Shown one piece after another: positions 7,954 through 23,643 of a stretch of 25,488 nucleotides of DNA. The position numbers were made by a program, and so were the translations under genes. Location: positions 1 to 25,488 of IMG/VR virus record IMGVR_UViG_3300046536_000664; one strand, 5' to 3'. The notes beneath the pieces are model-generated. The model saw only the letters and a list, made by a program, of their open reading frames with translations, made no database searches and was not told the DNA's origin. Within the stretch, counting starts at the first letter, position 1. Each line of letters begins with the position of its first letter. Source of the DNA: a virus.

Positions 7954-8223
7954 TCAGTACGGCACGGTCGGGTCCGGCGGGTCAATGCCAAGCCGTTCGA
8001 AGAACTCCTCGTTGCCGTCATATCCCTCGTCGGTGTCCAGCGCGATCTCGAGCAGCTTCGTGGCCTCGACCGTACAGGAAAACGGGACCGCGATGGTCGA
8101 CAGCGTGGGGCCGAAACGGTCCCTGTAGCGTTCGCGCGCCTCGCCCCAGGCGAGTATCTGTTCCGCCGTCGGATCGCCGGCCTCGACCTCGCCATCATCG
8201 TCCGCTTCATCAGCCACCGTCAC
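7954..8223 (-). CDS. Acidic small protein directly after the portal fusion (89 aa)
   Basis: It starts at GTG 8223, overlapping the TGA of the giant portal-fusion gene (GTGA), so it is probably translated by coupling. The 89-residue product has an acidic start (ADEADDDGEVEAGD), a helix (TAEQILAWGEARERYRDRFG), a strand-like IAVPFSCTVEA, and an acidic end (ALDTDEGYDGNEEFFERLGI). The composition is strongly acidic. An acidic partner translated right after a multi-domain effector-like protein could be an immunity or chaperone factor, but the sequence does not show this. No family is recognised. Confidence 0.65.
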   Translation of the reverse strand: MTVADEADDDGEVEAGDPTAEQILAWGEARERYRDRFGPTLSTIAVPFSCTVEATKLLEIALDTDEGYDGNEEFFERLGIDPPDPTVPY

Positions 8224-11200
8224 GCCCCTTTCTTGATCGTCGCCCCTCCACGCTCGGCGAGGATATCGTCGAAGTGATCAGTGGTCTTCGGCGCGATGGC
8301 TTTCAATAGCTTTTTGTAGACCTTGCCGTTGGCGCTGCTGGTGAGCGAGACGTATTGCGCGAACATCTCGGCGGTCTGGAAGGCCGGGACTTTATTGTAA
8401 TACGCGACCCCGTGGCCGCTGCCGAAGCGTTCCTTGGTCATCGCGCCGATGAAATCCTGGAACTGCGAGTTGTCGACGTCGACGGCCCTCACCTCGTCGT
8501 AGCGGCCCTCGAAGGTGTAGGACTTGTCTATATCCCGCTGGACATCCGGGACGTGCGCGAGGTCGCCGTGGACCAGCACCTCCATGATCGCCTGTTGCGC
8601 TTTGAGCCTCGGCCCGGCGAACGCCTTCAGGTCGTCCTCGGTCAGGCCGACCTTCTCCGCTTCGTCGGCGAGGTCATAGGCGTTGGTTTTGTATGACAAC
8701 CCTTGCCCTGCTCCTTTCTTGAACTGCCACCTCCTGATCTGCCCCATCAGCGTGTCGGCCTCGCGGGCGCGATCCCCGTCCGCCCGGTACGACGCGTTGT
8801 TCCGGCCGACGCCCCAGCCGGCGCCGTTCCAGTCGATCGCGTGGCCATACTCGTGCCGCCAGGTGCCCGTGTCCTTCAAGCTGTCCATCTTGATTTCGTG
8901 CGGGTAGTTGTAATGCGCGCGGCCCCCCTCCTCGAATTTGACGCGGGTGAGCGGCAGGGTGTTCCGCATCGCCCCCAGCAGTTCCGGCGTGGCGTGCGCC
9001 CACGACCGCTCATGGAAGTCCTTCTCGCTCGCGATCCACTTGTGGCCGCGCTCCTTGATCACGTCGCCGATCTTCTGAGGTAGTTTGCCCTTGTCCGGCT
9101 CGGGCGTCGGTGACGGCTTCGGCTGGGGCTGGGGTTGTGGCTGGGGCCGCGGCGTCGGCGCCGCGTCCTGGCGCCGCCGGGCCGCCCGGTGCGACGAGAA
9201 ATCCGTCTGCCACGCCTGGCCCATGTGGTCGATCAACTGGTTCGCGTACTGCTCGACCTTGCCGTGCAGTTCGCCACCGGCGAGTTGCTTCAGCTTCGCG
9301 ATGGTCTCGAGCGGCGGCGAGTGCTCCTCCAGCGCCCTGGTCACCAGCGCCTTCATTTGCCGCGCGGACGCCCGCTTCGCGACCCAGGCCTCCGGCGCGT
9401 CTGGCACCGTCGCGGCGAAGCTCGTGACATGCGCGTGCAGGCGCGCCTCTTGCTCGCGCCTGTGCGCGTCGGGATCGGGTGGCGGCGGGGCCGGTTCGGG
9501 TGTCCCGCCACCGCCGCCGTCCCGTTTGGTCGCGCGGCCGTGCTGGTGGGCGTCGATCCCGTGCGCCGCGGCGATGTGGTCGATGAGTTGGTTGGCATAG
9601 TCGGCGACCGCGCCGTGCACCTCTTTGCCGGCGAGGTCCTTGATCTTCGCGATGGCGGCGGCCGGGTCGTGGCCCTCCTCCAGCGCCTTGGTGGCGTAGG
9701 CCTTCATGGCCTTGGCCGAGCCCCGCCGCGCGACCCAGGCCTTGTCGGCGTCAGGCACGCGCGTGGCGGCCTCGCGGGTCCGCTCGGTAGCGGCGGCCGG
9801 CGCGGTCTCGCCGCCGCCCGTGGCCGCCCCACCGCCGCCGCCGGAGCCGAACTTGCCGCTCTTGTCGCGCGGGTGATCCGTCTCTTTCCACTCGGCCGCG
9901 TCGGCCGCCAGGACACGTTCGACGTAGTCGTCGACCGGCGCCGTTGCTGTCTCGCCGTCGGCCTCGTCGGGATCATCGCCGCCCAGGGCGTCCTTCGCGG
10001 CCGCCGGTGGCGCCTTGCGGTACTTGTGGTTCTTCGGATCGTCGAAGTCGGTCAGGTTGGCCTTGATCGTATCCGCGCCCTGCACGAACCCCGACACAGC
10101 CCGGTGATTGCCGTTCCTGATGATGTATTTGCCATCCAGCTTCGCGACTTCGATCGGCGGATAGCCGGGCTCCAACGGGCGCAGCTTGTCGGGCTGGATG
10201 GTCCCCTGCCAGGCGTGCAGTTCCCGCACCGGAATGTCTTGCACGCCCTGAACCGGCTTCGCGTTGTAGTTGTTGGACTTCAACTCGCTGTGCAGTTTGG
10301 CGAGTGGCAGCGGGGTCTCCTCGACGATGTCGCTTTTCTTGTGCGGCACGACGCCGGAGCCGAACTGCCAGCCCTCATGCCCAGGGTCGTGCGTGAACGT
10401 GGCCGCCTCGGTGCCTTCCGGGGCCGGCGCGGCTGAGCCACCGCCACCGCCGCCGCCAGCGCCATCGATCTCGCCCAGCGAGTGCGGATGGAACACCGCG
10501 ATCGTCTGCGCCTTGCCGTCGCCGCCGGTCTCGATGATCCCGTCGTGCCCGGCCTTCAGCCACGCCTCGCGCAGGTCCGCGTTCGGCCCGGCGGTGTCGG
10601 TGTATGCCCGCAGCGGCTCGCCGTCCGGCCCGGAAATGGTGCTGCCATCGGGCAGCCTGAACACCGGCGGCTGGAACGTCTTTTTAAGCTCGTCGACCTT
10701 CTTCTCGACGTCGGCCGTGTTGCCGATGAACGGATTGCGAAGGTCCGGCTTCACGCGCAGCTTCGCCTCGCCGAAGTTGTCGCGGCCAGGATGGTCGCCG
10801 GGGAACAGATAGAGGCCAGCGCCCTGCCAGGTCCTGGTGCTGCTTTTCGAGAAGTCGTGACTTCCATCGCCTATCGCCTTCGCCCGCGCCGGGTTGGTGA
10901 AGTGCGTCGCGTCGGGCACCAGTTCCTTCGCCCGGTGGCCCGCCTCGGTCATCGCGGGCCGGTCGTCCGCGCTGGTCTCGTTGCGCGTGTGGCCGCCGCC
11001 GCCAGCGCCGAACTGGCCGTTTTTCGCCCGATCGTGGTCGGACTCGTTCCACTCGTCGGCGGCCTGCGCCGTGTCCGCGGCGGTCGGCATGACCTGGTAG
11101 CGTGAGTTCGGGATCAGCGTCTTGACGCCGCCCATTTCCGTGTGCCGGTTCGCGAACTCGTAGACGCGCGCCCGTGTCGTCGGCCTCCCCGAGAGCGCCT

Positions 11201-13601
11201 GCGCGGACAGCCGCGTGTGGCCGCTGATGACGAAATGCTCGCCGGTGTCCCGGTTGTGGCCGATCTCGGGCAGTTCCGGGTTGTGGTTGAGGTTCTCGAT
11301 GTAGGCCTTGATGCCTTCCTTCGGCACGTAGGGTTGCCCGTAGTTGATCGCGTGGATCGGCACGTCTCGCACCGGCCCGTACTTCGGCGAACGGTTCTTG
11401 GCGCCGCCCAGCACGATCGTGTCCGGCTTGCCGAAGCCGATATCCGACGGGTGGATGATCCTGCCGTAACTGGCCCGATCTTCGTCGGTGTCGGCCCAGG
11501 GGTGGTCGCGCTCCGTCAGCTTTTCCAGCGCCGCGTGCGCGGTCGCTTTTTCCTCCGGCGTGAGCGGATCGTTCCGCCCCTCGCTCGCGCCGTGCGCGGC
11601 CTTGAACTTCCGCTCCTTGCCGGCCGGATGAACGGAGTTGCCGCCGGGGCCGAACTTCCCGCCCTCACCGCGCGGGTGGTCGCCCTCCTTGAACTCATCG
11701 GCGCCCAGCCGGACGTGGCCCCGGTCGCCCTCGCCCAGGTGGACGTGGACCTTGGCGTCGGGATCTTGGGTGACGACTTTGACGTGACTCTCGCCAGCCG
11801 GCAGCGCGGCGGCCTTGTCATCGTCGGTCTGGGGTTTGCCGTCGCGCGAGCCCTTGTTCGGGTCCGGGGGATTTGGCGAGCCGGCCGGCCCCAGCTTGCC
11901 GGGCCCGCTGGCGATCGGCGCGGGTGAGCCCCCGGCGGGCTTGGACAGCCCCGAGGCGTCAGGCGGCGGCCCACCGGAGCCGGAGGGAGGAACACCGCCC
12001 CCTGGTGGGCCGCCCGCGCCGCCGAGTGGATCTGGTTCCTGCTCGGGGGGCGTCGGCGCTGGCGTGGTGAGGTCGAGGCCCTGGTACGGGCTGTCGGACG
12101 CGCCGGCCAGCTTCTGACGGATTTCGTCCGGGCTGAGCACGCCCGCGTTGACGTAGACGGCGTCGAGGTCGGCGTCGGACTTGCGCGCCGTCGCCTCCTC
12201 CTCCTCGCTCATCTCGCGCAGCGGTTCCCAGGCGTGCGTGATGTCGTCGTCGATCTCGCCCCACAGGTCGAGCATCAACACGTTCAGCACGGTCACCAGG
12301 TGGGCGTCGAAGAACGAGGCCTGCTGGGCCCGGATGAACTGGCTCCAGACCTGAAGCTCGCCCTCGCTCGTGGCGTTCAGCCCGGACGGCGAGATACCCA
12401 GCAGCACCACCAGCGGGATGCCCACGGCCGAGGCCATGTGTTCCTGGCTCTGCGCCTGCAGGTGGTCGATCGCGCCCAGCGGCGTGGCCACGTTCTTGAA
12501 GTCCTCGGTGGTCTTATCGAGGATCATCATGTTGTTGTTGTCGCGAAAGTAATTGAACATCTGGGCGCGCATCGCCAGCGTCGCCGCCGCGCCCGAGTTC
12601 AGCACCGCGCCCATGTTGGTCTGCAGCACCGGCGTCGAGAACGAGTGCACCAGATCGGACACCGACTGACGGGTGCGCAGCCAGTTGTCCACGTAGGGTT
12701 TGGCCATCTGCGACAGCGCCAGCCCGGCGAACGAATAGGCCGGCTTCAGCATGTCCGGCATTTCGCGGCCGATGAACGGCAGCACCCGCGTGCGATGGAT
12801 TTCCTTCCCCATCACCCACCACGTCTGCGGCAGATAGAAGCCCTCCCGCAACGGATCGGCGGCGTTGTAATTGTTCGGGTAGCACCACATCGGCTCGACC
12901 ACCCGGATGCCCTTTAGGTCACCCTTTTTGATCATGCGCGGATCGACCGGCAGCGGCAGCTTCATCAGGTCGCGGTCATCGCCCTGGCCGTTGTCGATGT
13001 AGAGGTGAGAGCGCCCGAAGAAGCCGTCGAGCAGCGCCAGCAGCGTGAACTTCTCCTTCAGCTTATGCCGCTTCATGGCGTCTTCGAGTTCGGCGATCCG
13101 GTCGGATTTGTCGTCCTGGCCCTTGGCCTGCAGGCGGAACCAGCGCCGCGTCATGTCCTTGGCGATCGTCTCGCTGATGCGCCGGTATTCGGTGCGCTGG
13201 GCCAGTTCGGCGAGGTAAGGGAACCCCAGCCAGTACATCCCGTCGGTCAGCGCGGCGCCGTAGCCTGATCCGCCGAAGTTGGCCATCGGGTTGTTGAGGT
13301 CGTCCATCGCCATCGGGCGGACGCTCTCGGGCACCACGCCGGGCATCGGCGCGGCGGGACGGAACAGGCGCGTCTGGTCGGCCGGCGTCGCCTCGCGGGT
13401 CGAGTAGAGCCGGAACGGCGTGAGGTCGGTCTCGCCTGGGGTGAGGCCCAGGTCCATCAGCGCCCGATACATCGCCGTCGGGTCCATCGGCGGCGGCGGC
13501 GTGGGCCCGGCCGGCGCCTCGGACGGGGGTGGAGTCAGGCGCGCGGCGTCACGCGCGAGCAAGCCCAGCAGACCACCGAACAGGCTCGTCAGGAGCGCCA
13601 T
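8220..13601 (-). CDS. Portal protein fused to ParB-like, ART-like, ParB-like, repeat and metallopeptidase-like domains
   Basis: One frame of 1793 codons from ATG 13601. Residues 1-510 are a DUF1073-type portal (the family also labelled Acb1-like), with ETIAKDMTRRWFR near 144 and VGIPLVVLLGISPSGLNATS near 393-412. Residues 511-630 are a Pro/Gly-rich linker. Residues ~690-840 are ParB-like with VISGHTRLSAQ (791-801). Residues ~885-1045 look like an ADP-ribosyltransferase of the polyvalent-protein type: H900, GAGLYLF (928-933, Y931), GHDGIIE with E1024, and IAVFHPHSLGEI. Residues ~1085-1190 are a second ParB-like domain with IIRNGNHRAVSG. Two related ~65-residue repeats lie at 1281-1350 and 1399-1462, then a Pro/Gln stretch and a C-terminal zincin-like domain with WRHEYGHAID (HEYGH 1583-1587) and possible third ligand E1745 in AEMFAQYVSL. 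Usual portals of this family are about 450-550 residues. It lies between terminase and the small-gene cassette. Confidence 0.88.
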   Translation of the reverse strand: MALLTSLFGGLLGLLARDAARLTPPPSEAPAGPTPPPPMDPTAMYRALMDLGLTPGETDLTPFRLYSTREATPADQTRLFRPAAPMPGVVPESVRPMAMDDLNNPMANFGGSGYGAALTDGMYWLGFPYLAELAQRTEYRRISETIAKDMTRRWFRLQAKGQDDKSDRIAELEDAMKRHKLKEKFTLLALLDGFFGRSHLYIDNGQGDDRDLMKLPLPVDPRMIKKGDLKGIRVVEPMWCYPNNYNAADPLREGFYLPQTWWVMGKEIHRTRVLPFIGREMPDMLKPAYSFAGLALSQMAKPYVDNWLRTRQSVSDLVHSFSTPVLQTNMGAVLNSGAAATLAMRAQMFNYFRDNNNMMILDKTTEDFKNVATPLGAIDHLQAQSQEHMASAVGIPLVVLLGISPSGLNATSEGELQVWSQFIRAQQASFFDAHLVTVLNVLMLDLWGEIDDDITHAWEPLREMSEEEEATARKSDADLDAVYVNAGVLSPDEIRQKLAGASDSPYQGLDLTTPAPTPPEQEPDPLGGAGGPPGGGVPPSGSGGPPPDASGLSKPAGGSPAPIASGPGKLGPAGSPNPPDPNKGSRDGKPQTDDDKAAALPAGESHVKVVTQDPDAKVHVHLGEGDRGHVRLGADEFKEGDHPRGEGGKFGPGGNSVHPAGKERKFKAAHGASEGRNDPLTPEEKATAHAALEKLTERDHPWADTDEDRASYGRIIHPSDIGFGKPDTIVLGGAKNRSPKYGPVRDVPIHAINYGQPYVPKEGIKAYIENLNHNPELPEIGHNRDTGEHFVISGHTRLSAQALSGRPTTRARVYEFANRHTEMGGVKTLIPNSRYQVMPTAADTAQAADEWNESDHDRAKNGQFGAGGGGHTRNETSADDRPAMTEAGHRAKELVPDATHFTNPARAKAIGDGSHDFSKSSTRTWQGAGLYLFPGDHPGRDNFGEAKLRVKPDLRNPFIGNTADVEKKVDELKKTFQPPVFRLPDGSTISGPDGEPLRAYTDTAGPNADLREAWLKAGHDGIIETGGDGKAQTIAVFHPHSLGEIDGAGGGGGGGSAAPAPEGTEAATFTHDPGHEGWQFGSGVVPHKKSDIVEETPLPLAKLHSELKSNNYNAKPVQGVQDIPVRELHAWQGTIQPDKLRPLEPGYPPIEVAKLDGKYIIRNGNHRAVSGFVQGADTIKANLTDFDDPKNHKYRKAPPAAAKDALGGDDPDEADGETATAPVDDYVERVLAADAAEWKETDHPRDKSGKFGSGGGGGAATGGGETAPAAATERTREAATRVPDADKAWVARRGSAKAMKAYATKALEEGHDPAAAIAKIKDLAGKEVHGAVADYANQLIDHIAAAHGIDAHQHGRATKRDGGGGGTPEPAPPPPDPDAHRREQEARLHAHVTSFAATVPDAPEAWVAKRASARQMKALVTRALEEHSPPLETIAKLKQLAGGELHGKVEQYANQLIDHMGQAWQTDFSSHRAARRRQDAAPTPRPQPQPQPQPKPSPTPEPDKGKLPQKIGDVIKERGHKWIASEKDFHERSWAHATPELLGAMRNTLPLTRVKFEEGGRAHYNYPHEIKMDSLKDTGTWRHEYGHAIDWNGAGWGVGRNNASYRADGDRAREADTLMGQIRRWQFKKGAGQGLSYKTNAYDLADEAEKVGLTEDDLKAFAGPRLKAQQAIMEVLVHGDLAHVPDVQRDIDKSYTFEGRYDEVRAVDVDNSQFQDFIGAMTKERFGSGHGVAYYNKVPAFQTAEMFAQYVSLTSSANGKVYKKLLKAIAPKTTDHFDDILAERGGATIKKGA
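9216..9761 (-). repeat. Pair of ~65-residue coding repeats in the portal fusion
   Basis: Codons for residues 1281-1350 (9761-9552) and 1399-1462 (9407-9216) encode two copies of one module: VPDADKAWVARRGSAKAMKA and VPDAPEAWVAKRASARQMKA, each continuing into KALEE/RALEE, an AKIKDLAG/AKLKQLAG segment and a closing YANQLIDHI/YANQLIDHM. The copies have diverged, so the duplication is old. I do not recognise the module. Confidence 0.85.
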
Positions 13602-13607
13602 GCGACC

Positions 13608-15026
13608 TCAAAACTGGAACGACGGAAGGTTGGCGCCGGGCGGCATGTGAATCCCCAGCTTGCGCATCTCGTCTGGGTCGATCCGCATCGGCGGAAGCTG
13701 GGCCACGGCGTTGTAGGCCCGCGAGGTGGCGTCGGCGTCGTCATCGTGGCCGTTCACGGGCGGGAAGTTCTCGAGTTCGGTGAACCACCGCTCGTTCCAC
13801 CGCCCGCGCAGCACCATGATGTTGCCGACCTCGGCCTGCGAGGAAAACGGGCCGAACCGGGTCACCTTGTCGCCGCTCTCCGGCGATGAGTCGACGATAT
13901 AGCCGGCCAGCATGTGGGTGAGCGCGACGATCTGGGCCACCCCGGCCTGGCCTGGGTCTTTCGGCAGGCTGGTGGTGTTCTCGTAGCCGTCCTGCTGCGC
14001 GTAGTTCAGGATGCGCCGGTTCACCTCGGCGGGCGATCCGCGGAACGCGTCGGCGTGGAGGATGATCCAGCGCCCGTCGTGCATCACGCCGATCTTGACG
14101 CAGGCGGTCCAGTCCGGGTCGTTGCCGTCCTTCTGCTCGGACGAGGCCAGGTCCCAGCCGCGCACGGTTTTGACGCACACCGGCGGGATGTCGACGATCT
14201 GGCACCACGAGCGGTTGAAGTACAGCCCGGCCGACGGCCTGATCTTCCAGTTGCCGTTGAGCAGCCGCTCGCGCTCGACCGAGGGCAGCATCATCAGGTT
14301 GCCGAGGTAGCCGGGGTCGGCGCGCATCAACGCGGGATTGTCGGCCAGCTTGGCGGCCACGAACGTCATGCTCTTGACCGCCTCGACCGGCATCCCGGTC
14401 GCGCGCACCGCCTCGTCGCGGGTGTCGAACCAGACGATCTCGTCGCTGGCGCCGCGGGCGAAGTAACGCACGATCCCCGACCGTTCCGGGATCGGGTAGC
14501 CGGTGCTCTGGTCGATCCACCAGGCGATGAACTCGGCGACCCACGAGCCGGCGTCGGCGTTGCACGTCGCCCGGATGTAGGGCCGCACGCCCGTGGTCGA
14601 GCGGTTCCGGCTCATCAGATAGAAGAACTGGTAACGGGAAAACGACGTCAGTTCGTCGAACAGGATCAGCGCCACCTGAGAGCCGTGCCAGTCCAGCACG
14701 GTGGTGTCGTATTCGAGGTGCGCCAGCTTGACGGTGCCGCCGCCGGGCCAGCGCCAGTCCAGCCGCCCGATCGAGGGCACGCCGCCCGCGTGCGGGTAGA
14801 GTTTCATCGTCTCCGACCACAGCCCGCCCGGCTTGCGCAGGTCGGTGGTGTTGCGCCGGAACGCCACCGCGTCGAAGCCCTGGACACGCTTCACGTGGCG
14901 CAGCGGCTCCAGCAGCAGCGACCATGATTTGCCCGATCCGGCCGAGCCGCCGAATATCCCGATATCCGCCGAACTGGACATGAACGCCTCTTGCGGGCCC
15001 GGCTGCGGCGAGATCACCACCGGCAT
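13608..15026 (-). CDS. terL: Phage terminase large subunit
   Basis: The 472-residue protein starts at ATG 15026. The ATPase half has Walker A GGSAGSGKS (residues 26-34), Walker B ALILFDE (119-125) and a coupling-motif-like ATCNADAGSW near 153. The nuclease half has GWDLASSEQ (290-298) with D292 as a likely metal ligand, and acidic residues near the end (NGHDDDADATSRA). This is the motor that pumps DNA into the head and cuts it at the end of packaging. The length fits the family. It follows the small terminase gene by 2 bases and precedes the portal gene by 6 bases, the usual packaging order. Confidence 0.95.
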   Translation of the reverse strand: MPVVISPQPGPQEAFMSSSADIGIFGGSAGSGKSWSLLLEPLRHVKRVQGFDAVAFRRNTTDLRKPGGLWSETMKLYPHAGGVPSIGRLDWRWPGGGTVKLAHLEYDTTVLDWHGSQVALILFDELTSFSRYQFFYLMSRNRSTTGVRPYIRATCNADAGSWVAEFIAWWIDQSTGYPIPERSGIVRYFARGASDEIVWFDTRDEAVRATGMPVEAVKSMTFVAAKLADNPALMRADPGYLGNLMMLPSVERERLLNGNWKIRPSAGLYFNRSWCQIVDIPPVCVKTVRGWDLASSEQKDGNDPDWTACVKIGVMHDGRWIILHADAFRGSPAEVNRRILNYAQQDGYENTTSLPKDPGQAGVAQIVALTHMLAGYIVDSSPESGDKVTRFGPFSSQAEVGNIMVLRGRWNERWFTELENFPPVNGHDDDADATSRAYNAVAQLPPMRIDPDEMRKLGIHMPPGANLPSFQF

Positions 15027-15724: not shown

Positions 15725-16420
15725 ATGAGCACGAAGATCACGATCAGCGACCTGACCTCGGCCGGGCTGCTGGAGGTTTACAATCGCTGGGGGAGCCAGC
15801 ACGTCAAGAAGTTCGAGAATCGCGCCATCGGCGAGCGGCGGGTGGCGGCGCTACTCGCGGAAATGGACGACATGCCGCTGGCGATCGCGATGGGGACCAG
15901 GGAAGAGGCGAACGCGTTTTTCGCGGCGCGGGCGGCGAAGCGGACGAAGCGGGGGAAGGCGGCGACGCCAGCCCCGGTCATCCCCGACAACGACGGCGCT
16001 CCGGTGGTCGACGATCCGGCGGTCGGCGACGATACCTACGAGCGGCGCATGGCCGCCAGTGCCGCCGATCATGAGGCCGCCGAGGCTTTCCCCACCGGGG
16101 CGGGCGAGGCGGCCTTCCAGGCTTTCGTCGACACCGAGGAGGCGAAGGCGGCGGCGGCGCCCTCGGCGAGCCAGCCCGATCCGGCGGCGAAGCCCCGTCG
16201 GATGGCGGGTGTGCCGAAGCCCGGCTCCAAGGGCGGCATCATCGTGGCGCTGCTCAGCCGGGAGCAGGGCGCGACGGTTGACGAACTGATGGCGGCGACC
16301 GGCTGGCAGTCGCACACGACGCGGGCCTATTTCGTCGGCCTGCGCCGGATCGGCCTGCCGGTCGCGCGGGTGAGCAAGGGCGCCTATCGCATCGAGGCGG
16401 CGGTCGATCAGGCGGCCTGA
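15725..16420 (+). CDS. DUF3489-like winged-helix DNA-binding protein
   Basis: The 231-residue protein starts at ATG 15725, with AAGGGA upstream. An N-terminal helical part (LLEVYNRWGSQHVKKFENRA, ERRVAALLAEM) resembles the N-termini of DUF3489-type proteins. Residues ~75-160 are an Ala/Pro-rich linker. Residues 164-225 are a winged-helix module: KPGSKGGIIVALLSREQGAT, VDELMAATGWQSHTTRAYF, then a wing ending SKGAYRIEA. DUF3489 proteins are mostly alphaproteobacterial and phage, of unknown target. It transcribes away from the late operon and could be an early regulator. The same module ends the amidoligase at 18207-19223. The gene ends within a palindrome shared with the convergent methyltransferase gene. 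Confidence 0.85.
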   Translation: MSTKITISDLTSAGLLEVYNRWGSQHVKKFENRAIGERRVAALLAEMDDMPLAIAMGTREEANAFFAARAAKRTKRGKAATPAPVIPDNDGAPVVDDPAVGDDTYERRMAASAADHEAAEAFPTGAGEAAFQAFVDTEEAKAAAAPSASQPDPAAKPRRMAGVPKPGSKGGIIVALLSREQGATVDELMAATGWQSHTTRAYFVGLRRIGLPVARVSKGAYRIEAAVDQAA

Positions 16421-16422
16421 TC
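16406..16422. terminator. 17-base palindrome at the overlap of two convergent gene ends
   Basis: GATCAGG (16406-16412), loop CGG, CCTGATC (16416-16422) form a perfect stem. Both convergent genes end inside it and each ends with the same residues, Val-Asp-Gln-Ala-Ala. It could act as a bidirectional terminator, but neither side has a T-run. Confidence 0.5.
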
Positions 16423-17775
16423 CACCGGGGCCCGCTCGGCGACGACGGCGGCGAAGGGCTTCGGCTCTTCGCCGTTTTCGCTCGTGAGCAGCGCCTCCTG
16501 GCCGGTGAAGTTCTGCCATCTCAGAATTCCGACATCAACGTAGAGTGGGTTGATTTCCAGACAGTGGGCGCTGCGTCCCGTCATCTCAGCGGCGATGCCG
16601 GTCGTGAAGCTGCCCGTGAACGGATCGTAGACGGCCTGGCCTTGGCTGCTGTTGTTTTCGATTGCGCGACGCATGCACTCCACCGGTTTCTGCGTGCCGT
16701 GCCCGGTGCGCGCGTTCTCTCCCTTGCCGTTGCCGATGCCCTGGAAGGTGTTGTTGTTGACCTGCCACAGCGTCGATTGTTTGCGGCCGCCCACGTAGTG
16801 GCCCGGCTTGCCCTTGCGCACGGCGTACCAGCACGGCTCGTGCTGCCAGTGATAGTCCCCGCGCGAGATGGGCGGATGAGGTTTGGCCCAGATGATCTGG
16901 CTCCGCATCACGAAGCCGGCTTTCTCCAGGGACTGCTGCACCGCCGCCGCGTGCAGTCCGGCGTGCCAAACGTAGGCGACGTCGCCGGGGAACAGCCGCC
17001 ACACGTCGGTCCAGTCCACCCGGCCGTCGTTCTCCACCCGGCCGGGAGCGACGTATCCGTTGGTAGTCCACAGGCCCGGCGCGCGGGTGCGCCATTCCGG
17101 GTCGTAGTCCACCCCATAAGGCGGGTCGGTGACCATGAGGTTCGGCCTGACGCCGGCCAGGGCGCGCGTGACGGCCGCGGGGTCGGTGCTGTCGCCACAG
17201 ACCAGGGTGTGCCGCCCGAGCCGCCACCGATCGCCGGGGCGGGACGTCGGGGTATCAGGGACGGGCGGGACCTCGTCGGGATCGGTCAGCCCATCGGGCC
17301 GCAGCAGCTTCTCGATATCATCGGAGCCGAACCCGGTCAGCAGGAGGTTGTAGTCGAGCGCGGCGAGGCGGGCGAGTTCGGCGCGCAGCACCTCGTCGTC
17401 CCAGCCCGCGTTCAGCGCCAGTTGGTTGTCGGCGATGACATAGGCGGCGATCTTCGCCTCGGACCAGCCGCGCGCGAGCATGACCGGCACCTCGGCGTAG
17501 CCGAGCAGGGTGGCGGCGGCGACGCGGGCGTGGCCGGCGATGATGGTGCCGTCCTCGGTGGCGAGGATCGGGATGGTCCAGCCCCACTCCAGCATCGAGA
17601 CGGCGATCTGGTCGATCTGGGCGGGCGAGTGGGTGCGGGCGTTGGCTGAGTAAGCCGTCAGCCGGGCGATCGGCCAGCGCTCGACGTGGTCGGCGGGCCA
17701 GAGCGGTGTGGCGGGCGGGGCGGGGGTGGCGCTACGGCTCGCCCTCGGGCGCCTCGTCGTCGGCTTGCTGGCCAT
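16408..17775 (-). CDS. ParB-like domain fused to beta-class adenine DNA methyltransferase
   Basis: The 455-residue protein starts at ATG 17775. Residues ~30-160 are a ParB-like domain: LTAYSANARTHSPAQIDQI, then GTIIAGHARVAAATLLGY with GHAR at 81-84 and VIADNQLAL near 113-121. The methyltransferase has catalytic motif IV DPPY at 217-220 before SAM-binding motif I at 384-393 (DPFTGSFTTG), the beta-class order also seen in CcrM. Phages use such enzymes to protect DNA from restriction or to alter host methylation. Motif I has Phe where the usual DPFxGSGTT has Gly, an uncommon change that could affect SAM binding. The target recognition region lies between. The gene overlaps the upstream HTH gene by 44 bases, so the two are likely co-transcribed. 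Confidence 0.92.
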   Translation of the reverse strand: MASKPTTRRPRASRSATPAPPATPLWPADHVERWPIARLTAYSANARTHSPAQIDQIAVSMLEWGWTIPILATEDGTIIAGHARVAAATLLGYAEVPVMLARGWSEAKIAAYVIADNQLALNAGWDDEVLRAELARLAALDYNLLLTGFGSDDIEKLLRPDGLTDPDEVPPVPDTPTSRPGDRWRLGRHTLVCGDSTDPAAVTRALAGVRPNLMVTDPPYGVDYDPEWRTRAPGLWTTNGYVAPGRVENDGRVDWTDVWRLFPGDVAYVWHAGLHAAAVQQSLEKAGFVMRSQIIWAKPHPPISRGDYHWQHEPCWYAVRKGKPGHYVGGRKQSTLWQVNNNTFQGIGNGKGENARTGHGTQKPVECMRRAIENNSSQGQAVYDPFTGSFTTGIAAEMTGRSAHCLEINPLYVDVGILRWQNFTGQEALLTSENGEEPKPFAAVVAERAPVDQAA

Positions 17776-18206: not shown

Positions 18207-19223
18207 ATGCTCAACAACACCTACGGCATAGAGATCGAATGCTACCTGCCCGAGGGCGGGACGCAGGCCGGGGCGGCGGCGGCGATCACCGCGCGGCTCG
18301 CCGGGGCCGGCATCTGCCAGGTCGAAAACTACAACCACCAGGTGCGCGGGCACTGGAAGATCGTCACCGACGGATCGCTCGGCGACTACATCCGCGGGAT
18401 GGAGGTGGTCAGCCCGATCCTGACCGGCCAGGAAGGCCTCGACGCGATCACCAAGGTGATGGACGCGATGGCCGACTACGGCTGCACGGTATCCAAGAAA
18501 TGCGGCCTTCACATCCACGTAGGGGTGGCGGGCCAGCCCATCGGATTTTTCCGCTCGCTGACGAAGCTCTACGGCGGGTTCGAGAGGGTGATCGACGCTT
18601 TCATCCCGCCCTCGCGGCGCGGCTCGACCAACGGCTACTGCCGCTCGGTGACGCACCTGGACGCCGCCCAGATCGACCGGGCGGACAGCCTGGACGACTT
18701 GATCCGGCTGATGGGGCGCGCGGGCGATGCCCGGAACTACAAGCTGAACCTGACCGCCTATCGCCGGCATACCACGGTCGAGTTCCGGCACCATACCGGC
18801 ACGGTCGATGCCCGGAAGGCCACGGCCTGGGCGAAGCTTTGCCTAAGGATGGTCGAGGCCGCGAAGGCCGGCCGGGCGCTCGGCCCGGCCTCGGGCGGCG
18901 CCAATCAGGCGAAGCCCGGCTCCAAGAGCCACCTGATCGGCCAGATGATGCGGCGCGCCGACGGGGTCAGCGGGCGCGAGGCGATGGCGGCGGCGGGCTG
19001 GCCCTCGGTATCACTGCCGCAGCAGGCGCGGGCCTGCGGGATGGCCTTCACGACCCGCCGGTTCGGCCGCGAGGTCCGCTACTACGCGGTCGCAGCTACC
19101 ACGACGGGCATCGGCGCGACCCTGGACGGGCTTTTCGAGATGCTCGACTGCCCGGCGGACGAGCGGGACTACTTCCGGGCACGGACGGCGGGGCTTTCGG
19201 GCCCGACCGCCTGGGCCGCCTGA
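18207..19223 (+). CDS. Amidoligase (Amidoligase_2-like) with C-terminal winged-helix module
   Basis: The 338-residue protein starts at ATG 18207 (AGGGA eight bases upstream). It has the amidoligase (COOH-NH2 ligase) motifs in order: YGIEIECY (6-13), WKIVTDGS (50-57), MEVVSP (65-70), CGLHIHVG (99-106), KLNLTAY (179-185) and TVEFRHHTGTVDARK (190-204). This glutamine-synthetase-like family joins an amino group to a carboxylate using ATP, for peptide tags or gamma-glutamyl products. Residues 235-296 (KPGSKSHLIGQMMRRADGVS ... REVRYYAVA) match the winged-helix module at the end of the DUF3489-like protein at 15725, suggesting a DNA-bound or regulatory amidoligase. It is followed by an HTH gene and a gamma-glutamylcyclotransferase gene on the same strand. 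The substrate is unknown. Confidence 0.9.
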   Translation: MLNNTYGIEIECYLPEGGTQAGAAAAITARLAGAGICQVENYNHQVRGHWKIVTDGSLGDYIRGMEVVSPILTGQEGLDAITKVMDAMADYGCTVSKKCGLHIHVGVAGQPIGFFRSLTKLYGGFERVIDAFIPPSRRGSTNGYCRSVTHLDAAQIDRADSLDDLIRLMGRAGDARNYKLNLTAYRRHTTVEFRHHTGTVDARKATAWAKLCLRMVEAAKAGRALGPASGGANQAKPGSKSHLIGQMMRRADGVSGREAMAAAGWPSVSLPQQARACGMAFTTRRFGREVRYYAVAATTTGIGATLDGLFEMLDCPADERDYFRARTAGLSGPTAWAA

Positions 19224-19256
19224 AAAACCAACGCACACCCAACGAGGAGAACGACG

Positions 19257-19487
19257 ATGGCGACGAGAACGATCAAAAAGGGCGACGACGGCGGGCGGAT
19301 GACCGCCGAGCAGCTTCGGGCCTGGCGCGAGCGGATGGGATACTCGGTGACCGACGCCTGCGAGGCGCTCGGGGTCGGCGGGGTCTCGCTCGAGGGCTGG
19401 GAGTCCGGGGTCGAGGTGCCGCGCTACATCGCGCTGGCCTGCGCCGCCCTGGCGCTCGGCATCGGCGGCTACGGCGAGGAGGGCTGA
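19257..19487 (+). CDS. XRE-type helix-turn-helix protein
   Basis: The 76-residue protein starts at ATG 19257 behind GAGGAG. After a basic start (MATRTIKKGDDGGR), residues 15-62 are an XRE-type HTH: MTAEQLRAWRERMGYSVTDA, CEALGVGGVSLEGWESGVEV, PRYIALACAALAL. 'LRAWRERMGYS', 'A-EALGV', 'WE-G' and 'P-YIALAC-AL' are typical for phage XRE proteins. It lies between the amidoligase and the cyclotransferase gene (3-base gap to the latter), so it is part of that cassette. It may regulate the cassette through the upstream palindrome. Confidence 0.85.
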   Translation: MATRTIKKGDDGGRMTAEQLRAWRERMGYSVTDACEALGVGGVSLEGWESGVEVPRYIALACAALALGIGGYGEEG

Positions 19488-19490
19488 GCG

Positions 19491-20015
19491 ATGGCCTACA
19501 TGTGGGCGTATGGATCGAATCTCCACGTCGGCCAGATGGCGCGCCGGTGCCCGGCCGCCATCCTGGTCGGGCGGCTGCGGCGGAAGGATTGGCGGCTGGT
19601 CTTCCGCGGCGTCGCCGACGTGATCCCGGAGCCGGGCGCGGTCTGCTACGGCGGGCTCTGGGACATCACAGAGGAATGCGAGCGGGCGCTCGATATCTAC
19701 GAGGGGGTCGGCTCCGGGCTGTACGACAAGATCTGGGCGCCGATCCGGCTCGACGGCGTCGAGACCGAGATGCTTTTCTATCGGATGCGATCGACCGGGG
19801 TGTTCCCGCCGAGCCGGTCCTATCTGGACGTCATCCGGCAGGGATACTTGCACTTTCGCATGCCGAAGGCGGCGACGACGCTGCTGCGGGCGGCGGTGGC
19901 CGACAGTTGGGATGACAAGCACCCGAGTAACATCGAGCGCCGACGCCACGCCCGGAAGGGCCGGCCGTCGCTGGCGCCCAGGCCCGATCTTCCGCTGCCC
20001 GCCACGACGAGGTAA
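19491..20015 (+). CDS. Gamma-glutamylcyclotransferase-like protein
   Basis: The 174-residue protein starts at ATG 19491. It shows the AIG2/GGCT fold: WAYGSNLHVGQMARRCPAA with YGSN at 7-10, then VGRLRRKDWRLVFRGVADV, PGAVCYGGLWDITEECERAL and DIYEGVGSGLYDK. E71 in YEG is at the place of the catalytic glutamate. Members release 5-oxoproline from gamma-glutamyl-amines or peptides. Next to an amidoligase, it could undo or trim the bond the amidoligase makes. The C-terminal ~35 residues are basic and Pro/Arg-rich (RRRHARKGRPSLAPRP). No membrane segment or signal peptide is seen. Confidence 0.88.
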   Translation: MAYMWAYGSNLHVGQMARRCPAAILVGRLRRKDWRLVFRGVADVIPEPGAVCYGGLWDITEECERALDIYEGVGSGLYDKIWAPIRLDGVETEMLFYRMRSTGVFPPSRSYLDVIRQGYLHFRMPKAATTLLRAAVADSWDDKHPSNIERRRHARKGRPSLAPRPDLPLPATTR

Positions 20016-20091: not shown

Positions 20092-20370
20092 ATGCGTTTC
20101 ATTGAACTGCACAAGATCACCGCCGACCGGCCGGCGCGGCCCGAGGCATCATCCTACACCGACACCGACGAGCCGGGCGAGCCGGGCGCGGCGGTGGACA
20201 CGGCGGACACGGTGCCCTGCTCGGTGAGCGTCGCGGCGATCCGCTGCTTCTATCCGCGCAAGGACAACCGGGTGGGAACCCGGCTGACCTTCACCGACGG
20301 CGGCGGCTTCGCGGTGACGGAGCCGTACGACGAGGTGGCCCGGCTGCTGACCGCCGCGATCTTTAGCTGA
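20092..20370 (+). CDS. Small FlbD-like beta protein
   Basis: The 92-residue protein starts at ATG 20092 behind AAGGAG. An N-terminal strand (MRFIELHKI) is followed by a poorly ordered acidic region, then a compact beta part: VSVAAIRCFYPRK, VGTRLTFTDGGGFAVTEPYD and a final helix EVARLLTAAIFS. The pattern 'IELHK ... I--F ... GT-LTFTDG--F-V-E-YDEV--L' is like small FlbD-type proteins and many phage small proteins. Function is unknown. A terminator-like hairpin follows its stop codon. Confidence 0.75.
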   Translation: MRFIELHKITADRPARPEASSYTDTDEPGEPGAAVDTADTVPCSVSVAAIRCFYPRKDNRVGTRLTFTDGGGFAVTEPYDEVARLLTAAIFS

Positions 20371-20755: not shown

Positions 20756-21358
20756 ATGATCCCCGCCATCGACCTTTCCATCTTCGACATCGACTTCGAC
20801 CCCGCCGCGACCATCCCCGACGCGGGCGAGGTCGCCGCGATCGTCTGCGGCAAGTGCCACGGCCGCGGTAACTTCGTCGGCTACACCGGCCGGGTGGTCG
20901 GCAAGTGCTTCGCCTGCGGCGGCACCGGGGTGAAGGCCCAGGCGCGCGGCGCGGAGCCGGCCGGGGCGGCGATCGACGTCAGCGCGATCACGGTCTCCTT
21001 CGAGGCGGCGCGGGCGAACGGGATCAAGACCCCGAAGCTGCGGCTGGCGGATTTCATCTTCTCCCGCGCGCCCGATACCGGCGCCAACGCGGGCTCGATT
21101 TACGTCAAGCGGTCCAGGGCCGCGGGCGGCGACTATCTCGGCAAGGTGACGGCGGGCCGGTTCATGCCCTCGCGCGATTGCGACGGGCCGACCGGCGAGG
21201 CGATCGTCGCGGTGGCATCCGATCCCCACAACGCGGCGAAGGCTTACGGGATGCGGACCGGCTCCTGCTCCTGCTGCGGGCGGGAACTCACCAACGGGCT
21301 GTCGATCGACCTGGGGATAGGGCCAATCTGCAGGGGCAAATTTGGGTGGGGAGGCTGA
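20756..21358 (+). CDS. Zinc-finger protein with DnaJ-like and DUF6011-like motifs
   Basis: The 200-residue protein starts at ATG 20756 behind GAGGAG. Residues ~29-60 carry CGKCHGRGNFVGYTGRVVGK and then CFACGGTGV, a CxxCxGxG pair like one half of the DnaJ zinc centre. The middle is basic and strand-rich (AARANGIKTPKLRLADFIF, IYVKRSRAAGGDYLGKVTAG). The end has CSCCGRELTNGLSIDLGIGP then ICRGKFG, the DUF6011 signature CxxCGRxLTxxxSxxxGIGPxCRxK. Two separate zinc modules in one protein suggest nucleic-acid binding. It begins a new transcription unit with a plausible promoter. Confidence 0.85.
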   Translation: MIPAIDLSIFDIDFDPAATIPDAGEVAAIVCGKCHGRGNFVGYTGRVVGKCFACGGTGVKAQARGAEPAGAAIDVSAITVSFEAARANGIKTPKLRLADFIFSRAPDTGANAGSIYVKRSRAAGGDYLGKVTAGRFMPSRDCDGPTGEAIVAVASDPHNAAKAYGMRTGSCSCCGRELTNGLSIDLGIGPICRGKFGWGG

Positions 21359-22943: not shown

Positions 22944-23231
22944 ATGCCACAGCACACTTTCGCGGTCCTGCTGCAGATCACCACCCGAGACCCCCGGCTC
23001 ACCGAGGCGAAGATCAACGCGGCGCTCGCCAGCGGCACGGCGGGCGGGATCGCGGCGATCCGCCACGCGGTCCTCTCCCGGCTGCCGCGGGACGTCGAAC
23101 GCCTGGTCGCGATCATGCCGATCGACCAGTCCCAGGCGCTGATGCTGCTGCACGAGGCGGTCGGCGAACAACTCGGCGCCGATCCGTTCGGCCGGCCGCC
23201 GCCCGACTACGTGCCGCCGACCAATGACTGA
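22944..23231 (+). CDS. Small phage protein (95 aa), unknown function
   Basis: The start is ATG 22944, with CGGAGCG about 6 bases upstream. The 95-residue product is mostly helical: MPQHTFAVLLQITTRDPRLT, EAKINAALASGTAGGIAAIR, HAVLSRLPRDVERLVAIMPI, SQALMLLHEAVGEQLGADPF. The ending is Pro-rich. Nothing identifies a family. Its stop overlaps the start of the zinc-finger gene by 8 bases. Confidence 0.7.
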   Translation: MPQHTFAVLLQITTRDPRLTEAKINAALASGTAGGIAAIRHAVLSRLPRDVERLVAIMPIDQSQALMLLHEAVGEQLGADPFGRPPPDYVPPTND

Positions 23232-23643
23232 CACCGGGGCGGGCGGGCCGCGCTGCCCCTACTGCGGCCTCGCGGCGGTGTGGTACGCCGACAGCGCCCT
23301 GCTCTACCACGGGCGGGACTACGGCCCGGCCTGGGTCTGCCCGCCGTGCGGCGCCTGGGTGGGGGTCCACAAGGGCACCACCAGGCCGCTCGGGCGGTTG
23401 GCCGACGCCGAACTGCGCCGCGCCAAGATGGCGGCGCACGCGGCGTTCGACCCGCTCTGGCAGGCCCGTCAGCACCGCTCGGGGCTCAGCCAGGGCCACG
23501 CCCGCGGCAAGGGGTATAAGTGGCTGGCGGGCGAACTCGGCCTCGCGGCGAAGGACTGCCACATCGGCATGCTCGACGTGGAAACCTGCCACCGGGTGGT
23601 CGCGATCTGCGCGCCTTACCTGAGACCCCGACCCCGTGACTGA
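23224..23643 (+). CDS. DUF3268-like zinc-finger protein
   Basis: The 139-residue protein starts at ATG 23224. It has CPYCGLAAVWYADSALLY, then WVCPPCGAWVGVHKGTTRPL, with two CxxC knuckles, and continues GRLADAELRRAKMAAHAAFD and PLWQ. This order (CPYCG, Y-x-W-x-C-x-x-C-x-A-x-VG-x-H, PLG-LA, LR-AK, H--FD-LW) is the DUF3268 signature found in phage and proteobacteria. The rest is a helical region (YKWLAGELGLAAKDCHIGML, CHRVVAICAPYL). Zinc binding is likely; the target is unknown. Confidence 0.85.
   Translation: MTDTGAGGPRCPYCGLAAVWYADSALLYHGRDYGPAWVCPPCGAWVGVHKGTTRPLGRLADAELRRAKMAAHAAFDPLWQARQHRSGLSQGHARGKGYKWLAGELGLAAKDCHIGMLDVETCHRVVAICAPYLRPRPRD

Follow-up and report, generated by a model that had tools for sequence, protein, structure and literature searches.

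A compact phage cassette pairing a predicted amidoligase with a predicted gamma-glutamyl cyclotransferase

The window, meaning the whole stretch of DNA that was analysed, is a 25,488-base IMG/VR contig (IMGVR_UViG_3300046536_000664). An earlier note, made from the letters alone, had described an amidoligase, an XRE regulator and a gamma-glutamyl cyclotransferase (GGCT) lying on one strand of a phage genome. Both parts of that description hold: a terminase large subunit and a portal on the contig give its viral origin, and the three genes are plus-strand open reading frames whose family matches lie above the respective cut-offs. Beyond the three first described, a further conserved gene, the fourth of the cassette, lies at 20092-20370. 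The relevant features are as follows.

8220-13601, minus strand: portal-containing protein of 1793 aa, with the portal domain in residues 129-481 only
13608-15026, minus strand: terminase large subunit, by sequence match
15725-16420: DUF3489-domain protein (53.8 bits), resembling the domain inserted in the amidoligase
16408-17775, minus strand: single protein in which a DNA methyltransferase domain comes after a ParB-like N-terminal region
18207-19223, plus strand: Amidoligase_2-family COOH-NH2 ligase of 338 aa, core about residues 1-222 (PF12224, PHROG 2443)
18900-19097, plus strand: winged-helix (DUF3489-like) domain inside the C-terminal part of the amidoligase, residues about 232-297, by similarity to the protein at 15725-16420
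19257-19487, plus strand: XRE-type HTH protein of 76 aa (HTH_31 PF13560, 30.9 bits against a cut-off of 27)
19491-20015, plus strand: GGCT (GGCT/AIG2 fold family) of 174 aa, catalytic residue E71, by Pfam, PHROG and human GGCT
20092-20370, plus strand: small conserved protein of 92 aa with its ATG at 20092 behind GAAGGAG; no named family
20756-21358: DUF6011 protein, in the plus-strand gene run containing the cassette
23224-23643: DUF3268 (zinc-finger-containing) protein, in the same plus-strand gene run

The best terminase match among named phages was to Rhizobium phages (58% identity) and, because these carry the nearest terminase, an alphaproteobacterial host is likely. Outside residues 129-481, the remainder of the portal open reading frame is long and gave no Pfam match. 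Promoter and terminator scans returned hits at chance level only. A 67-kb relative of the contig, IMGVR_UViG_3300036784_000078 (loci L109 and L177 of the samples described below), carries a related terminase (67% identity) as well as a GGCT of this cassette type (64% identity); as judged from this relative, phage backbone and cassette were probably inherited together.

The amidoligase matched PF12224 over the whole profile (positions 3-245 of 245) at 118 bits, against a cut-off of 22, with an E-value of 8e-34. Across 63 relatives, residues G7, E9, E11, W50, D55, E66, G100, H102, H104, R137, N181, E192 and R194 were invariant. Sequence searches of the PDB with the amidoligase returned nothing useful, and its AlphaFold2 model (pLDDT 93) was compared with known structures, whereby glutamine synthetase (GS; 5dm3, Z 13.1), YbdK (1r8g, 12.8), GmaS (7cqn, 12.6) and plant glutamate-cysteine ligase (GCL; 2gwc, 11.8) were recovered; with Foldseek, YbdK-type entries ranked first, followed by the depupylase Dop. 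Sequence and structure prediction together show a predicted GS/YbdK/GCL fold bearing conserved acidic, His, Arg and Asn residues. The predicted fold is thus that of the YbdK/GCL/GS superfamily, whereas identity to its members is about 9-14%.

The cyclotransferase scored above the cut-offs for both AIG2_2 (PF13772) and GGACT (PF06094), matched PHROG 2520, annotated as 'gamma-glutamyl cyclotransferase', and aligned with human GGCT (2pn7) at an E-value of 1.4e-7. The YGSN and YEG motifs named in the earlier note are in place at residues 7-10 and 70-72, respectively, with Y7-N10 and Y70-G72 invariant across 24 related proteins. E71 of the second motif aligned with the human glutamate that is a glutamine in PDB 3cry, an entry which we take to be the E98Q mutant of human GGCT. 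Human GGCT (C7orf24) and the contig's enzyme thus have YGSN and the catalytic glutamate in common, while the two sequences are distant.

The DUF3489-like insert is placed between the catalytic core of the ligase and its helical tail. Pfam DUF3489 scored 14.6 on the amidoligase, below the cut-off of 29.5, and in the model the insert had a predicted HHH-EE topology with high pLDDT. It is present in the amidoligases of loci L014-L017 and L054, and more weakly in L018, L019, L021 and L028; in the ligase tree, the contig and L014-L018 formed one supported clade (100/97). The HTH protein, a probable transcription regulator by its family match, has homologues in the corresponding cassettes of L014-L017 and, among the 78 viral GGCT loci, in 19. 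In the contig, only 3 bases separate the HTH stop codon from the GGCT start. The 92-aa protein encoded by the fourth gene carries the conserved motif IRCFYPRK..GTR.TFTDGGGFAVTE.YDEV, with the core CFYPRK..GTR.TFTDGGGFAV, and gave neither a Pfam nor a PHROG match. Its homologues were found in 6 of 80 amidoligase loci and 22 of 78 GGCT loci, as against 1 of 80 control loci, and the order ligase, HTH, GGCT, fourth gene was frequent among the GGCT loci (L174-L179, L185 and L190). That the fourth gene might resemble flagellar FlbD was considered; Pfam gave no support, and the likeness is not claimed.

For the linkage counts, three samples were assembled: 80 viral amidoligase loci, 80 terminase control loci drawn from that collection and cut with equal flanks, and 78 viral GGCT loci fetched afresh. 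When viral contigs were scanned with a single amidoligase or GGCT sequence, no match was obtained, so that alignments were needed as queries, and a mixed GGCT alignment proved too divergent for scanning. A GGCT was found in 55/80 amidoligase loci and in 1/80 terminase controls; conversely, an amidoligase was found in 65/78 GGCT loci, some contigs of which overlap the first set. The co-occurrence count proposed in the earlier note thus came out in favour of a conserved linkage. The only positive control, L109, is probably itself a relative of this cassette, because it has a DUF3489-type open reading frame and shares its contig with GGCT locus L177. When ligases were collapsed at 70% identity, GGCT was kept in 38 of 51 clusters. 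The GGCT gene lay downstream of the ligase and on the same strand in all 56 of 56 cases, including the contig, mostly within a few hundred bases. The E-values together with the recurrent linkage exclude chance. That the two genes share an operon through phage mosaicism alone, their products acting on unrelated substrates, is very improbable: either family is also found without the other, and gene order and spacing vary, but mosaicism leaves unaccounted for both a linkage of this frequency over a diverse tree, set against the single control, and the constant downstream, same-strand position of GGCT in the amidoligase set.

Annotated pairs of the two enzymes were found in Ca. Heliusvirales NatCom_20922 (gut), Bacillus phage 035JT001, Geobacillus phage GR1, C75C1, ctwe8250 and Terrisporobacter phage TPDSL_ph1, while in Arthrobacter phages the ligase is partnered by a GATase instead of GGCT. 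Like the contig, the two-enzyme Bacillus, Geobacillus, Terrisporobacter and Ca. Heliusvirales phages have only amidoligase(s) and GGCT, close by on one strand; the contig adds the DUF3489-like ligase insert, the HTH gene and the fourth small gene. In phage C75C1 (L010:7603-8499), the annotated GGCT has 298 aa, and its N-terminal stretch is like the class-II GATase-like protein of L007; this would make it an apparent GATase-GGCT fusion, encoded downstream of the amidoligase. Locus L004 (Porphyromonas gingivalis phage019b) has an amidoligase with the small partner protein described below, without GGCT, amid head and tail genes and beside a HicA/HicB pair.

Iyer 2009 and Hardies 2013 are reportedly the sources named for a 'peptidoglycan modification' cassette of the phiEco32/RIO-1/LUZ24 type. 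The gene set has been described in RIO-1-like and LUZ24-like phages, phiEco32 and others, and modification of peptidoglycan against superinfection or as preparation for lysis was proposed (PMC5498523, PMC11253131, PMC11945000, PMC11318856), superinfection exclusion or peptidoglycan change being put forward as the role of the cassette in PMC5498523 and PMC11945000. The earlier note had pointed, rightly, to comparative genomic work by Iyer, Aravind and colleagues linking the two families; PMC11253131, PMC11318856 and PMC10580990 cite Iyer 2009 for the phiEco32 cassette. An amidoligase together with a GATase is described for OM43 phages (PMC10580990). The literature found on phage amidoligase cassettes reported no enzyme assay, measured substrate or superinfection test.

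As in these cassettes, Amidoligase_2 and GGCT lie in one tailed-phage region of the contig. Family searches placed the amidoligase, GGCT, GATase and COOH-NH2 ligase of phiEco32 all inside 7 kb. Both phiEco32 and ctwe8250 have COOH-NH2_lig (PF14395) and GATase_6 (PF13522), whereas neither family gave a match in the 25.5-kb contig, which is possibly a fragment. The cassette idea is therefore already published, and the contig's clade is a variant with extra features; what is new in it is an unusual, DNA-binding-like winged-helix domain carried within the ligase, along with the conserved HTH and fourth small genes.

A different partner was found beside many other amidoligases. In 55/80 viral loci and 59/80 bacterial-genome loci, against 0/80 controls, the gene directly 3' of the ligase codes for an unnamed protein of some 78 aa; the profile was refined on the loci counted, which may flatter its recall and leaves the control zero unaffected. 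Examples lie at L020:3009-3242, L024:5838-6071 and L019:5266-5493, with more than 50 further loci. The protein is absent from the contig and from most of its clade. No Pfam match was obtained, and 1 of 38 members gave a weak PHROG/NCBIfam match (E 0.0055 and 0.0062). Its predicted fold, from an alignment in which two rows from the phage collection were left out, is a compact beta-alpha-alpha-alpha-beta arrangement (pLDDT 91). The model had no match in the PDB (best Foldseek E-value 2.8; no VIA match at a Z of 2 or more), and E-values below 0.001 were reached for two unnamed viral models only. Among 133 non-redundant amidoligases, sequence relatedness being uncorrected, presence of the small protein correlated negatively with that of GATase and of the DUF3489 insert.

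The same 133 amidoligases include 12 with a GATase-II and 39 with the small protein that have no GGCT, and 38 that have the small protein and neither GGCT nor GATase. The proposal in the earlier note that the ligase adds and the cyclotransferase removes gamma-glutamyl groups is reasonable by family chemistry; since so many amidoligases (12/133 and 39/133) have no GGCT, removal by this enzyme is not obligatory, and from the 38 it follows that such systems can do without gamma-glutamyl removal. A broader scheme would make the phage amidoligases a dedicated modification system whose commonest partner is the small protein, acting as substrate, carrier or adaptor; this partner would be swapped for GATase-II in some lineages and for the ligase-borne winged-helix domain in that of the contig, with the cyclotransferase erasing the bond made. 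We regard that scheme as speculative and on balance doubtful.

It is reasonably probable that the locus belongs, as a compact form, to the modification cassettes of amidoligase and cyclotransferase already known from phages, in which the ligase would form and GGCT would trim gamma-glutamyl-type amides, a changed host surface being the likeliest benefit. By analogy, gamma-glutamyl ligation followed by removal as 5-oxoproline is plausible chemistry, while the substrate and the benefit to the phage are our inferences. In ligases of the GS and GCL type, ATP serves to activate a carboxylate, which is then linked to an amine. The phage ligase would likewise couple a carboxylate to an amine at the expense of ATP, the carboxylate being most likely the gamma-carboxyl of glutamate, since most structural relatives of the ligase use this group, and the amine belonging to a substrate of host or phage in the cytosol; a cell-wall peptide precursor would be the most likely bearer of this amine, or else another small peptide or amine. 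The substrate of GGCT is a gamma-glutamyl amide with a free alpha-amine, from which 5-oxoproline is produced; the type of product expected of the ligase thus matches the need of the cyclotransferase, and making and removal would fit one substrate pool. The phage GGCT may accordingly split gamma-glutamyl amides that bear a free alpha-amine, freeing 5-oxoproline, and so trim, reset or recycle that pool, with the HTH protein as a probable regulator of the plus-strand operon. In intact peptidoglycan stems the amine of glutamate is acylated and GGCT cannot act. Because this amine is not free, a target in the cell wall would have to be a precursor, a fragment that is free or undergoing recycling, or else a newly made glutamyl branch. 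The altered surface would most likely serve superinfection exclusion or preparation for lysis.

The structural neighbours of the ligase also bear on a metabolite route, whereby the ligase would make a small gamma-glutamyl compound (gamma-Glu-Cys, a gamma-glutamylamine or the like) and GGCT would degrade gamma-glutamyl compounds or glutathione pieces of the host, feeding glutamate or amine metabolism or the redox balance. YbdK, GCL and GmaS all produce small gamma-glutamyl compounds, and the closest GGCT of solved structure, that of humans, acts on gamma-glutamyl amino acids; such a route, however, poorly explains the ATP-grasp protein and second COOH-NH2 ligase of fuller cassettes, as well as the winged-helix insert in the ligase, and we hold it to be possible but unlikely. 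The Foldseek match to Dop, a Pup deamidase/depupylase of the same fold, indicates that the superfamily has protein substrates, and the small protein encoded after the ligase at 55/80 viral loci might function as a substrate or carrier. Both observations suit a protein-directed writer and eraser, in which the ligase would gamma-glutamylate (or otherwise amidate) a host or phage protein and GGCT would reverse this, in the service of takeover or anti-defence; a host-protein target of this kind was among the ideas of the earlier note. Against it, the contig and most of its clade have no such small protein, the substrates of human GGCT are small gamma-glutamyl amino acids, and in reading the loci we noticed no association with defence genes; modification of a protein is accordingly judged quite unlikely.

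Modification of a cytosolic substrate, most likely a cell-wall peptide precursor or another small peptide or amine, is the reading that we prefer for the contig. Cassettes of this kind occur widely in phages and have been cited as cell-wall modifiers since 2009; the strong, directional linkage of ligase and cyclotransferase offers a clean two-enzyme system for testing, and the partner of about 78 aa is a concrete candidate for a substrate or adaptor.
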